From Gammaproteobacteria bacterium (lineage in GTDB: Bacteria > Pseudomonadota > Gammaproteobacteria > GCA-001735895): a stretch of 64,000 bases of DNA. Under the pieces are notes generated by a model, which made no database searches, was not told the origin of the DNA, and saw only the letters and a program-made list of their open reading frames with translations. The stretch lies in the NCBI GenBank assembly GCA_030066085.1, contig JASJCI010000036.1, positions 62,001 to 126,000 of the forward strand, in the 5' to 3' direction. A program made the position numbers and the translations under genes. Position 1 is the first letter of the stretch; each line of letters opens with the position of its first letter. Positions 10,579 to 55,308 of the stretch are shown here, piece after piece.

Positions 10579-11487
10579 CTAGGATTTGTCGGAATCGCTT
10601 CGTTCGCCCGCCGCCGCGCGCAGGTATTCGATCAGCACGGCCACGGCGGTGCCGGCGCGCGCTGGCGCCGGCGTCGCGAGCTTCAGCGATCGCTTGACCT
10701 CGACACGTTCGGCGAATGGCGCCACCAGGCTGCCATCGTCCAGCGCCGCGCGCACCAGCGGCTCGTGCCCCATCAGGACACCGGCGCCGTTTTGCGCCTC
10801 CTGCAGCGCCAGGCTGTAGAGCGAAAAGCGGGCGCCGGTAGTATCAAGACCGAGGCCGGGTGCCGCAGACGCCAGCCAGTCCGGCCAGTCGTCGGTGAAG
10901 TGGGTATCGTGCAGGAAACGACAATTGCGCAAATCAGCAGGGTCGCGCAACCGATTCGCCAGCGCGGGAGCACAAACCGGGAAAATTCGGTCGCGGCACA
11001 GGTCGAAGTTATGCCCGCGGGTTTCGTCGGCGACGAAAAACAGGCTCAGGTCGAAGGGTTCACGCAACAGGTTCGGCGGCGTGTCCAGCGCGATGATCGA
11101 AATGGTCGTTTGCGCCAGGCTGGCGCGCACCGCGGGCAGCCTCGGCGACAGCCAGAGCTGGGCAATGCTCGGCAGCACCGCAATCCGGATTTCGCGCGGT
11201 TCCGCGCCCGCGCGCAAACCGTTTATCGCGTGACCCAGCTGGTCGAAGGCGAGACTGAAATCGCCGGCCACTCGCGCACCCAGCGACGTCAGGCGCACAC
11301 CCTGGGAAAGACGCTCGAACAGGGGCGCGCCGGCCCAGGCTTCGAGCGCTTTGACGTGTTGCGCGATTGCGCCCGGCGTAACCGACAGCTCGTGCGCGGC
11401 AGCACGAAAACCGCCCAGGCGCGCGGCGGCCTCGAAGGCGCGCAGGGCATTGAGTTGCGGCGCCGCGGGTTTATCGGGCTTTAGCAT
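10579..11487 (-). CDS. LysR-family transcriptional regulator
   Basis: A 302-residue LysR protein of GcvA type: PQLNALRAFEAAARLGGFRA, AAHELSVTPGAIAQHVKALE (HTH), then an effector domain starting EIRIAVLPSIAQLWLSPRL. I chose ATG 11487 because the family begins just before the PxLNALRxFEAAAR helix; the upstream in-frame ATG at 11523 adds an unlikely aromatic/basic stretch. It is divergent from the SHMT paralogue at 11592 across 104 bases, so it most likely controls that gene and perhaps those beyond. It is distinct in sequence from the LysR protein at 4800. Confidence 0.9.
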   Translation of the reverse strand: MLKPDKPAAPQLNALRAFEAAARLGGFRAAAHELSVTPGAIAQHVKALEAWAGAPLFERLSQGVRLTSLGARVAGDFSLAFDQLGHAINGLRAGAEPREIRIAVLPSIAQLWLSPRLPAVRASLAQTTISIIALDTPPNLLREPFDLSLFFVADETRGHNFDLCRDRIFPVCAPALANRLRDPADLRNCRFLHDTHFTDDWPDWLASAAPGLGLDTTGARFSLYSLALQEAQNGAGVLMGHEPLVRAALDDGSLVAPFAERVEVKRSLKLATPAPARAGTAVAVLIEYLRAAAGERSDSDKS

Positions 11488-51349: not shown

Positions 51350-52069
51350 ATGTACGCGATAACGCTGGTCGACATCGCGGTGGCATTCATCCCGGTCGCG
51401 GTAACGCTGGTGCTGATCCTGTTCTGGTCCAGTAACCTGCGTCACGCCATCATCGCTATCCTGCGCATGCTGCTGCAGCTGCTGCTGATCGGCTATGCGC
51501 TCGAGTACATTTTCAACGCCGACAGCCACTGGATAATCCTGGCGGTGCTGAGTTTCATGCTCGCGGCGGCCAGCTGGATCGCGCTGGCCCCGCTGCCGGT
51601 AAAAAACCGCGAGCTGTTAGTCCTCAGCCTGGTCGCAATCGCGGTCGGCGGTATTTTCAACCTGGCGTTGATTACCCAGGCGGTACTGCACGCCGATCCC
51701 TGGTACGCTCCCGCGGTAATGATCCCGATCGCCGGAATGGTGTTTTCCAACGCAATGAACAGCGTGAGTCTCGCGGGCGAACGCCTCTACAGCGAACTCG
51801 ATCATCACGGCGACTACGGGCGCGCGCGCAACGCCGCGTTCCAGGCCGCTATGATCCCGATTACCAACTCGTTGCTTGCGGTTGGACTGGTGTCGCTGCC
51901 CGGCATGATGACCGGGCAAATCCTGGCCGGCGCTTCCCCGCTGGTAGCGGCACGCTACCAGATCATCGTGATGTGCATGATTTTCAGCTCGGCCGGCATT
52001 TCGGCGGCGGTGTTCCTGTGGTTGTTACGAGATCGACTGCGCGTCGAGACCGGGCGGGAATCCAGCTGA
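51350..52069 (+). CDS. FetB/YbbM-type ABC permease (UPF0014)
   Basis: A 239-residue inner membrane protein with about six or seven helices (VDIAVAFIPVAVTLVLILFW, IIAILRMLLQLLLIGYALEY, WIILAVLSFMLAAASWIAL, LVLSLVAIAVGGIFNLALI). The UPF0014 signatures MIPIAGMVFSNAMNSVSLAGERL and LVSLPGMMTGQILAGASPLVAARYQI are clear. In E. coli, FetAB is an iron exporter; its ATPase FetA is not seen here, so the partner must be elsewhere. AGGAG precedes the ATG. The stop overlaps the start of the next gene. Confidence 0.9.
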   Translation: MYAITLVDIAVAFIPVAVTLVLILFWSSNLRHAIIAILRMLLQLLLIGYALEYIFNADSHWIILAVLSFMLAAASWIALAPLPVKNRELLVLSLVAIAVGGIFNLALITQAVLHADPWYAPAVMIPIAGMVFSNAMNSVSLAGERLYSELDHHGDYGRARNAAFQAAMIPITNSLLAVGLVSLPGMMTGQILAGASPLVAARYQIIVMCMIFSSAGISAAVFLWLLRDRLRVETGRESS

Positions 52070-53079: not shown

Positions 53080-54045
53080 TTACGTCAGCACGACGCGCCC
53101 GGCGACCTTGCGGTCCTGTAACAACTGCAGTGCCCTGGGCAGCTCGGAGAATGGCAATGAGCGGCCGACGCGCGGATTGATAACACCCTGTTCGATCAAT
53201 TCGGTGAGTCCCGGCCACATGCGCGCAATTCGCTGCGGATCCTTGCTGCAGGTCAGGCCGAAAGACACTCCGAGCACGCCCTGGTGCCTGATCAGAACCT
53301 GGTTCAGCCGCAGGTTCGGAATCTTGCCGGAAGCGAATCCGAGCTCGATCATGCGGCCGTTGTAGCGCAGGCAGCGCAGCGTATCGTCGAAAAACCGACC
53401 GCCTACCGGATCGATAACGACGTCGACACCGTCGGGCGCGATCGCCGCGATGTCGTCCTGCAGGTGGCGTGAACGAGACGATACCGTTTCGTCGGCGCCA
53501 CAGGCCAACGCAACTTTTTCCTTGGCGCTGTCGCCGACGCAGGCGATTACGGTCGCAGCGCGGTGTTTCGCAAGCTCGATACAGGCTGTACCCACCGCCC
53601 CGCCGGCACCACCGATCACCACCACTTCGCCGCTAGCGAGGCCGGCGCGCTCGAGCGCCAGCTGCGCGGATCCGTAGGACACCGGGAATGCGGCCGCGAT
53701 GGAGGCGGGCATGGATTCGGGGATATGCGCAACCTGCGTTGCCGGAGCGACGACCTTGTCGGCATAGCCACCGTACTTGACGTAGGCGGCGACCTTGTCA
53801 CCGGTTTTCAGATCCCCGCAGTCGGCGCCGGTACGCGTGATGCGCCCGGCAACCTCCATACCCGGCACGAACGGCAGCGTCGGCTTGACCTGCGAGCGAC
53901 CGGCAATAACCAGCAGGTCGGAGTAGTTGACCCCGCAGGCCTTGACCGTGATTTCGACCTCGCCATCGCCGCATACGGGATCCGGCATACTGCCCTGCTT
54001 GAGATGACGCGGCCCACCCCAGGTTTCGCATTTCCAGGCGTGCAT
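53080..54045 (-). CDS. Zinc-independent NADPH:quinone oxidoreductase-like (MDR family)
   Basis: A 321-residue medium-chain dehydrogenase/reductase. N-terminal GroES-like part: ITVKACGVNYSDLLVIAGRSQVK and LPFVPGMEVAGRITRTG. The Rossmann motif is VVIGGAGGAVGTACIELAKH and the NADPH region follows (IACVGDSAKEKVALACGAD). No zinc-ligand cluster is seen, so it is of quinone oxidoreductase/crotonyl-CoA reductase-like type. The end is convergent with the SRPBCC gene; the two stop codons are adjacent. Confidence 0.93.
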   Translation of the reverse strand: MHAWKCETWGGPRHLKQGSMPDPVCGDGEVEITVKACGVNYSDLLVIAGRSQVKPTLPFVPGMEVAGRITRTGADCGDLKTGDKVAAYVKYGGYADKVVAPATQVAHIPESMPASIAAAFPVSYGSAQLALERAGLASGEVVVIGGAGGAVGTACIELAKHRAATVIACVGDSAKEKVALACGADETVSSRSRHLQDDIAAIAPDGVDVVIDPVGGRFFDDTLRCLRYNGRMIELGFASGKIPNLRLNQVLIRHQGVLGVSFGLTCSKDPQRIARMWPGLTELIEQGVINPRVGRSLPFSELPRALQLLQDRKVAGRVVLT

Positions 54046-54156
54046 GGGATTTCCCCGGCTGATTGGTTTTGGTCATCAGTGTACGCGTTTCACGGGGATT
54101 GGAAAGCAGGTATGGAGTGTCGGCCTGGCGGTTCACCCGCAGCGAAACCCTCGGGC

Positions 54157-54185
54157 AAAAAAAAAGGCCGGTTTTGCAACCGGCC
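54157..54185 (-). terminator. Strong intrinsic terminator (minus strand)
   Basis: GGCCGGTT, a four-base loop and AACCGGCC form an 8-bp stem followed on the minus strand by nine T's. It would end leftward transcripts coming from the 3-hydroxyisobutyrate-dehydrogenase-like gene before the quinone oxidoreductase gene. Confidence 0.8.
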
Positions 54186-54224
54186 TAAAGTCGTAATCGA
54201 CAATTATAACCAAAGGAGGACATC

Positions 54225-54269
54225 GTGAGAGAGGTTAAGGTATTAACCTTCACACAAGTGTGTATATAG
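54225..54269 (+). CDS. Putative 14-residue micro-ORF
   Basis: GTG AGA GAG ... TAG encodes MREVKVLTFTQVCI. AAAGGAGG lies five bases upstream, one of the best ribosome sites in the window. A small terminator-like hairpin follows seven bases after the stop. It could be a leader peptide, a small protein, or a small-RNA element; no downstream plus-strand gene exists for it to attenuate. Confidence 0.4.
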   Translation: MREVKVLTFTQVCI

Positions 54270-54398
54270 GTCATATCTGGAAAAAAACCAGAAATTTTTT
54301 GATAAACGGTAGAAAAAACAGTGTATCTGGGCCGATTTCATCACCTGGTTTGTGATTAATTTAGTATAACTTTATGATTTAACGCATAAAAAGTTGAT

Positions 54399-54418
54399 TT
54401 ATCCACAATTTATCCAGA
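54399..54418 (+). promoter_or_regulatory. Two DnaA-box-like nonamers, 11 bp apart
   Basis: TTATCCACA (54399-54407) is a perfect consensus DnaA box; TTATCCAGA (54410-54418) has one mismatch. The starts are 11 bp apart, one helical turn, in the same orientation, in the AT-rich island. Two sites are too few for oriC; a DnaA-titration or regulatory site is possible. Confidence 0.5.
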
Positions 54419-54441
54419 ACATTTCAAATTCGAAAAAAAAT

Positions 54442-55308
54442 TCAGCTCCGACGGAAACGGCGGATCAGGCTGGACGTGTCCCAGCGCCCGCCGCCCATTT
54501 CCTGGACCTCGCCATAGTAATCGTTGACGATACGGGTAATCGGCAGCTCGGCACCGTTCTTCTGGGCCTCGGCGAGACAGATCGCGAGGTCCTTGCGCAT
54601 CCAGTCGACCGCGAAACCAAAATCGAACTGGTCGTCGAGCATCGTGCCGCCGCGGTTTTCCATCTGCCATGAGCCGGCCGCACCCTTGGAAATGACGTCG
54701 ACGACCTTGTGCCCGTCGAGACCGGCGCGCTCGGCAAAGTTGAGTCCCTCGGACAGGCCCTGCACCAGCCCGGCGATACAGATCTGGTTAACCATCTTGG
54801 TCAGTTGGCCGGCGCCGACCGCGCCCATCAGCTCGCAGGCGCGCGCATAACTCAAGATCACCGGCCTGGCCGCGTCGAAAGCCGCCGAATCACCACCGAC
54901 CATGACCGTCAACACGCCGTTCTCGGCACCCGCCTGGCCACCGGAAACGGGTGCATCGAGAAAAGACACCTCGGCACGCTCGCCTATCTCGCGGGCGACG
55001 TCAGCCGACGCGGTGGTGTGATCGACCAGTACCGCGCCAGGCTTGCAGCCTGCGAGCGCGCCGTCTGCGCCAAACACCACCGAGCGCAGATCGTCGTCAT
55101 TACCGACGCACATGAAAACGAAGTCGGCTCCGTCCGCGGCCTCGCGCGGCGTGGTGGCGAAACTGCCGCCGTATTCCGCGCACCACTGCTCCGCTTTTCC
55201 CGTGGTACGGTTGTAAACCCTTGTCTCGTGCCCCGCTTTTGCAAGATGTCCCGCCATCGGGTAGCCCATGACGCCGAGGCCGATGAATGCTACTTTGCTT
55301 TGACTCAT
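54442..55308 (-). CDS. 3-hydroxyisobutyrate dehydrogenase-family NAD(P)-dependent oxidoreductase
   Basis: A 288-residue beta-hydroxyacid dehydrogenase. Rossmann motif AFIGLGVMGYPMAGHLAKAGH, substrate motif FLDAPVSGGQAGAENGVLTVMVGG, catalytic Lys region GAGQLTKMVNQI, and cofactor loop VYNRTTGKAEQW (Arg after Asn suggests NADPH preference). Substrates in the family include 3-hydroxyisobutyrate, tartronate semialdehyde and succinic semialdehyde; this one is not resolved. I start at ATG 55308; the earlier frame overlaps the end of uvrD. Followed by a strong terminator. Confidence 0.93.
   Translation of the reverse strand: MSQSKVAFIGLGVMGYPMAGHLAKAGHETRVYNRTTGKAEQWCAEYGGSFATTPREAADGADFVFMCVGNDDDLRSVVFGADGALAGCKPGAVLVDHTTASADVAREIGERAEVSFLDAPVSGGQAGAENGVLTVMVGGDSAAFDAARPVILSYARACELMGAVGAGQLTKMVNQICIAGLVQGLSEGLNFAERAGLDGHKVVDVISKGAAGSWQMENRGGTMLDDQFDFGFAVDWMRKDLAICLAEAQKNGAELPITRIVNDYYGEVQEMGGGRWDTSSLIRRFRRS

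Follow-up and report, generated by a model that had tools for sequence, protein, structure and literature searches.

Organization of the locus

The window analysed here is a 64,000-nt stretch of a gammaproteobacterial contig (JASJCI010000036.1). Between two oxidoreductase genes on its minus strand lies a short segment that can be read in both directions: on the plus strand it presents a micro-ORF with a ribosome-binding site, and on the minus strand the parts of a predicted small RNA (sRNA) gene. The features, in order of coordinates and with the evidence that places them, are:

53080..54045, minus: zinc-type alcohol dehydrogenase/quinone oxidoreductase gene, downstream of the sRNA and past its terminator; an inconstant neighbour
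54157..54257, minus: predicted sRNA gene of ~100 nt (about 101), from covariance model (CM) matches and fold
54157..54186, minus: intrinsic terminator, AGGCCGGTT-GCAA-AACCGGCCT with a T-run, from the terminator scan and compensatory changes
54190..54201, minus: short middle hairpin GUCGAUUACGAC, from the fold
54210..54220, minus: anti-Shine-Dalgarno (anti-SD) core UCCUCCUUUGG, the complement of the plus-strand ribosome site AAAGGAGG
54223..54257, minus: 5' hairpin with inner stem GGUUAA/UUAACC, the source of the inverted repeats of the micro-ORF
54225..54269, plus: micro-ORF of 14 codons with a GTG start, on the strand opposite the sRNA
54263..54268, minus: -10 box TATATA, kept as TATAnn in the genus loci
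54276..54292, plus: terminator-like hairpin of the initial annotation, from the terminator scan and the alignment of relatives
54286..54291, minus: -35 box CTGGTT, whose complement is part of that hairpin
54301..54310, minus: upstream element ACCGTTTATC, a possible activator site, from conservation 42 bp before the -10 box
54445..55308, minus: 3-hydroxyisobutyrate-dehydrogenase-type oxidoreductase gene (Pfam NAD_binding_2 and NAD_binding_11), upstream of the sRNA

The 5' end of the predicted sRNA is placed from the -10 box and is accurate to a few nucleotides.

Promoter, fold and strand of the predicted sRNA

Read in the minus orientation, the aligned genus loci show the parts in this order: upstream element, promoter, a hairpin that varies, the nearly frozen UCACGAUGUCCUCCUUUGGUUAU, then a short hairpin and finally a strong terminator and its T-run. 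The promoter elements CTGGnn and TATAnn, separated by 17 bp, are found in 25/25 genus loci of the main set. The consensus scan does not list this promoter, because CTGGTT is far from TTGACA, and the support for it is conservation. At this spacing, in other genera, CTGG occupies the -35 position in three of seven loci and TGG in five of seven; CTGG was not found at -35 in the G014 copy (L076). Further upstream, at a distance of 42 bp from the -10 box, [AG]CC[GA]TTTAT is intact in 18 of the 25 genus loci, altered by one base in three and not retained in four. In five of the seven loci of other genera this element lies 61-62 bp before the -10 box, a shift of 19-20 bp, i.e., near two helical turns further. 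The distance from the -10 box to the core is 51-55 nt in the genus and about 115 nt in the other genera. The AT-rich stretch upstream of the promoter (about 54360-54440, and its counterparts in relatives) holds sequences that resemble an IHF site. The sole further copy of the upstream element in the window is at 11218 on the plus strand.

The minus strand of 54158-54258 folds to -33.5 kcal/mol (z -5.6). Its core, AUGUCCUCCUUUGGUUAU, is nearly frozen and is predicted to present the six-base loop UCCUUU in a weak hairpin closed by CC/GG: the loop is unpaired with a mean probability of 0.95-0.99, and the flanking CC/GG are mostly paired (0.12-0.26). The outer flanks AUG...GUUAU are almost as invariant as the loop itself. 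The 5' hairpin, the exposed core, the short middle hairpin and the U-tailed terminator are arranged as in Hfq-bound sRNAs. On the evidence of sequence and conservation only, the locus has the promoter of its own and the U-tailed intrinsic terminator that are expected of an Hfq-dependent sRNA; it also has a conserved seed, the loop, that is predicted to be single-stranded between its paired flanks, and the genome encodes hfq (PF17209, 100.2 bits).

Covariation is concentrated in the terminator stem, where six of nine pairs show compensatory changes (both sides altered in at least one sequence) and 99.1% of the cells are paired. For the structure as a whole, the covariation score was reached by none of 500 shuffles and the number of pairs changed on both sides by 2 of 500; further pair types were not above the shuffles (500/500 reached). 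The core hairpin is devoid of covariation because its letters hardly vary, and three of its five pairs depart only by unpaired cells.

Folding energy was considered as a guide to the strand and discarded: over the same stretch, z-scores do not separate the strands (mean -5.1 sense, -5.7 antisense), which fold equally, and a contrast of -7.25 vs -2.27 came from different stretches. The minus strand is chosen because the terminator with its T-run, the conserved promoter elements and the balance of G-U and A-C variation all point there. When each strand is scored with its own consensus structure, the minus-strand RNA has 47 G-U and 1 A-C cells, the opposite strand 17 G-U and 14 A-C; in a wider alignment, the G-U/A-C counts are 4/0 for the minus strand vs 0/4 for the opposite one.

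Distribution

With 54150-54440 as the query, matches were obtained in 26 of 57 genomes (the window's own included), all of them within the 31 genomes of the same genus; one of the 26, G029, is matched on the promoter side only, and the sRNA body was not found in that genome. In G029, an IS91-type transposase gene with Y2 transposase and IS91 zinc-binding domains (L094:5253-6281, plus strand) lies just past the sRNA promoter. A collection of 84,980 species contains the core in its genus form on 23 contigs, all of them from metagenome-assembled genomes of the genus; this pattern would miss other genera because their 5' flank differs.

Two CMs extend the picture. R1, built from 23 distinct sequences with the window copy among them, scores 102.4 bits on the window. 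With E values up to 0.1 accepted, it matches 27 of the 31 genomes of the genus, or 26 after G001 is dropped. The G001 match (L077, E 0.00126) is false: it overlaps a cspA leader, and R2 finds nothing in that genome. R1 led to copies in two other genera, and R2, built from 26 sequences of three genera, finds a single copy per genome in 33 of the order's 41 genomes, with 3/3 genera represented; its scores are partly circular because the model contains many of the matched sequences. Alignment rows were chosen by a core expression, but a reading of all 33 matched genomes, one by one, showed TCCTCCTTTGGTT in every copy (25 + 8). Neither the sRNA nor the dehydrogenase gene (E 1e-60) was matched in G001, G003, G018 and G023; the apparent loss of the sRNA from these genomes is uninformative because the dehydrogenase gene is missing too and the locus may be unassembled.

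Spread outside the order is not borne out. A class-wide draw of 369 genomes, with 13 candidates scored in each, gave eight matches, three of them from the order; the other five are weak (E 0.0039-0.0076) where about four are expected by chance, and the core is absent in three of the five. Viral contigs gave no matches.

Genomic neighbourhood and probable independence of the predicted sRNA gene

When the longer copies of two contigs are counted, the dehydrogenase gene neighbours the sRNA on its upstream side in 24 of the 25 genus loci. A rival origin for the RNA is as mainly a processed or shared 3' end of the dehydrogenase mRNA and not the product of an independent gene. In 22 of the 25 loci, 102-298 nt separate the end of this gene from the -10 box on the same strand, and from the gene's stop codon to 54186 the scan lists no further minus-strand terminator, as a 3'-UTR product would have it. 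Against this origin, promoter elements with fixed spacing stand between the gene and the RNA; two contigs (L027/L029 and L017/L047) place the gene 1.1 and 1.5 kb upstream of the -10 box, and in one (L025/L037) it was not found; and the RNA is kept in other genera and in G014, where the immediate neighbours are different. We therefore consider a 3'-UTR product unlikely and an sRNA gene with its own promoter the better description of the locus.

The wider setting of the more distant copies recalls that of the window. A UvrD/Rep helicase gene is present in L096 (tblastn through L081) and in L095 (by reading of the sequence), L096 also has a permease gene resembling that at 51350-52069 of the window, and L076 has a PrmC-like gene; UvrD was not seen in the 8 kb of L097 that were read.

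Relation to known sRNA families

At gathering score, Rfam recognizes two tRNAs in the window and leaves the sRNA unmatched; in the loci of seven relatives it recognizes only the cspA leader in L077. Below threshold, the families that come up by E-value are RF00519, anti-hemB, BjrC1505 and SorY, and by bits sroB. In CyaR of enterobacteria, an anti-SD loop pairs with ribosome sites; the Rfam result lists for the locus contain no CyaR match. The highest bit score in the stretch (28.3, gathering score 44) belongs to sroB (RF00368) and comes from the terminator and the 5' part, with a 37-nt stretch of our RNA, core included, left unaligned. Anti-hemB (RF02837) is a small terminator-ended RNA whose CCUCC letters align with ours, at 23.4 bits and below its gathering score of 49.5. 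The Betaproteobacteria toxic small RNAs (RF02278), also terminator-ended, score 20.7 bits against a gathering score of 50, and are described as toxic when cloned in E. coli (PMC4603805).

The closest parallels in design are alphaproteobacterial. The alpha-r8 family (RF00519, suhB/MmgR, with SisA-D of Caulobacter) gives the best E-value in the stretch (0.00044, at 27.2 bits, below the gathering score of 41) and, like ours, comprises short sRNAs in which an anti-SD core precedes an intrinsic terminator; SisA is described as silencing its targets through Shine-Dalgarno pairing (PMC12559287). The core letters of the model, CUCCC, differ from ours and are not superposed on our core, the similarity being mainly in the terminator, and alpha-r8 RNAs are present in several copies in some genera, whereas ours has one copy per genome. 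The alpha-r14 family, represented by NfeR1, is reported to act on Shine-Dalgarno sites and to silence translation, and it resembles our RNA in that the anti-SD motif is ultraconserved and lies unpaired in hairpins whose stems vary (PMC10746234). It has three hairpins, each with CCUCCUCCC, whereas ours has the single core UCCUCCUUUGG.

A search of titles and abstract openings, largely outside subscription journals and hardly covering the core letters, found no published report of this sRNA. Judged from its sequence, the RNA appears to represent a new family that would work like an anti-SD sRNA and that scores below the threshold of every family tested. A family that Rfam does not match at threshold is thus captured in a CM and added to a genus whose 23 contigs found here all come from metagenome-assembled genomes.

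Proposed mode of action and search for targets

Taken together, promoter, core and terminator make it quite likely that the locus is a non-coding sRNA gene of the minus strand, with its own promoter and intrinsic terminator, whose product would act in trans on Shine-Dalgarno sites. Transcription of the sRNA would start at this promoter, within the 3' flank of the hydroxyisobutyrate-dehydrogenase-type gene, and stop at the intrinsic terminator; the promoter may be activated by a regulator that binds the upstream element. With Hfq, the weak core hairpin would open, the core could then pair with the Shine-Dalgarno sequences of several mRNAs, and this pairing would block ribosome entry, lowering the expression of these mRNAs. 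The sRNA probably switches genes off by covering the translation start signal, since its exposed loop matches the signal that ribosomes use. It is, in our analysis, probably an Hfq-associated, trans-acting silencer of mRNAs.

Searches for extended pairing partners gave counts close to their controls. In the 31 genus genomes, AAAGGAGGA-N2-9-RTG occurs at 100 sites, of which 26 are the sRNA locus itself; the 74 left compare with 80 for the reversed-pattern control. CAAAGGAGGA-N2-9-ATG, at 15 vs 9 for the reversed pattern, is not clearly commoner, and in the window's own genome AAAGGAGG-N3-10-ATG occurs 8 times vs 6. A long complementary partner, whether target or sponge, was sought in the same genome with as many as 3 mismatches allowed in 17 and was not found: the search gave 6 other sites, vs 4 in the control. 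The longest own-genome match before an ATG lies upstream of a glgC-like gene (L102; named from reading of the sequence), whose start region reads CAAAGGAGGAGACATG. Two linker strings, each common to two genomes, were considered as shared targets and set aside, since unrelated genes follow them: the L102 linker precedes an unrelated short frame in G014, and the other (G029, G003) precedes unrelated genes. Among extended matches, as distinct from 6-7 nt pairings, no mRNA start recurs in the genus; therefore the targets, if any, would pair via shorter stretches.

The same result bears on a different function, that of a global decoy. Here CCUCCUUU, which is like the tail of 16S rRNA, would compete with the tail of the ribosome or be held by a sponge, and no chosen mRNAs would be silenced; a core that is frozen over three genera while mRNA starts with extended matches do not recur speaks for it. 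A bare decoy does not obviously need the AUG...GUUAU flanks, which are nearly as frozen as the loop, and the long-match sponge was not found in the own genome, so that this function seems decidedly improbable. The chances are equally slim for its broadest version, a lineage-wide RNA that copies the anti-SD tail of the ribosome as a global titrator of translation initiation and not as a regulator of a few mRNAs; the bacteria that would host such a titrator show no enrichment of extended AAAGGAGG ribosome sites ahead of their start codons. For the trans-acting silencer that we favour, the retention of a 13-nt core though matching strong ribosome sites do not recur poses a testable question: how an anti-SD sRNA chooses its targets.

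The micro-ORF as an antisense image of the core

The initial annotation had read the plus strand, as a compact small-transcript unit without a tie to a downstream gene, and the elements it listed are all in the sequence. The 14-codon frame MREVKVLTFTQVCI runs from GTG at 54225 to TAG at 54267-54269; AAAGGAGG lies at 54212-54219, leaving a 5-nt spacer to GTG; the inverted repeats GGTTAA/TTAACC and ACACA/TGTGT are both within the frame; and TCTGG-A7-CCAGA at 54276-54292 is followed by AATTTTTT, a hairpin that the scan lists as terminator-like on the plus strand. A compact small-transcript unit without such a tie is borne out, and the stretch is conserved; the strand, the coding capacity and the terminator assigned to it are probably wrong.

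The ribosome site is not unusual taken alone: in the window, AAAGGAGG-N3-9-RTG occurs once vs 0.21 expected (at least once in 18 of 100 shuffles) and AAAGGAGG twice vs 0.77 expected. It is non-random because it is conserved in relatives, and AAAGGAGG-5 nt-GTG is found in 25 of 26 genus loci. This retention also follows from the conserved CACG, which is complementary to the GTG and precedes the core of the minus-strand sRNA. What lies beyond the start varies in length and in peptide. When the relatives were checked for the peptide, a frame of 14 codons was found in the window alone; 16 of the 26 loci have seven codons, 13 of these reading MREVRCS, and the remaining frames have 2, 2, 6, 6, 8, 8, 8, 18, and 48 or more codons, although a start of the form M-[RK]-x-[VIL]-[KR] is common to several further loci. 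The two-codon frames are found in L076, which reads MC, and in L019, where the third codon is TAG. The seven loci of other genera keep AAAGGAGG, but in two of them the frame is an ATG-TAA start-stop, one has no start (ACG) and one begins with CTG; the other three have ATG or TTG. On the comparison of frame and length across the loci, the micro-ORF was rejected as the main reading, and a leader peptide or other translated micro-ORF would have start, frame and peptide conserved, which is not the pattern found.

The plus-strand terminator was rejected as well. In the alignment of relatives, the TCTGG/CCAGA hairpin belongs to the window alone, and what is constant in it, CCAG, is the other strand of the -35 box of the minus-strand promoter. 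Different weak plus-strand hairpins do precede T-runs in relatives (L013 -6.4, L017 -5.3 and L021 -7.8 kcal/mol, with -5.3 in the window), and a T-run of five is absent from the plus-strand stretch in 6 of 26 genus loci; the conserved terminator is that of the minus strand. Ahead of the ribosome site, the promoter scan reports nothing on the plus strand; the one plus-strand promoter that it lists here, at 54350-54378, lies downstream. A short plus-strand transcript with a translated micro-ORF, be it a leader peptide or a regulatory ORF, is on this evidence highly improbable, the shared start and the MREVRCS frame notwithstanding.

The micro-ORF is best understood as the antisense image of the sRNA core, because the opposite strand of an anti-SD sequence looks like a perfect ribosome site. 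The complement of an anti-SD sRNA can thus mimic an ideal micro-ORF, which makes it a trap for small-ORF surveys.

Other short elements

Two further elements were observed in the course of the comparison. Upstream of the sRNA in G034, CUCUCUCCUCCUCCUUUU stands between possible hairpin arms and is followed by a terminator-like repeat (L095 ~1060, plus strand; also L078 ~229, plus strand). It was not seen in 8 other loci scanned; a shorter CTCCTCCTTTT is present in L096, outside any such hairpin and terminator setting. In two genomes of another gammaproteobacterial family (L110 and L114), the minus strand at ~1501-1615 carries a TTGACG/TATAAT-like promoter, CUCCUCUAUAUCCUCCUUUGG and an intrinsic terminator. 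This short element has no Rfam match at gathering score and is perhaps an independent or distant anti-SD sRNA.
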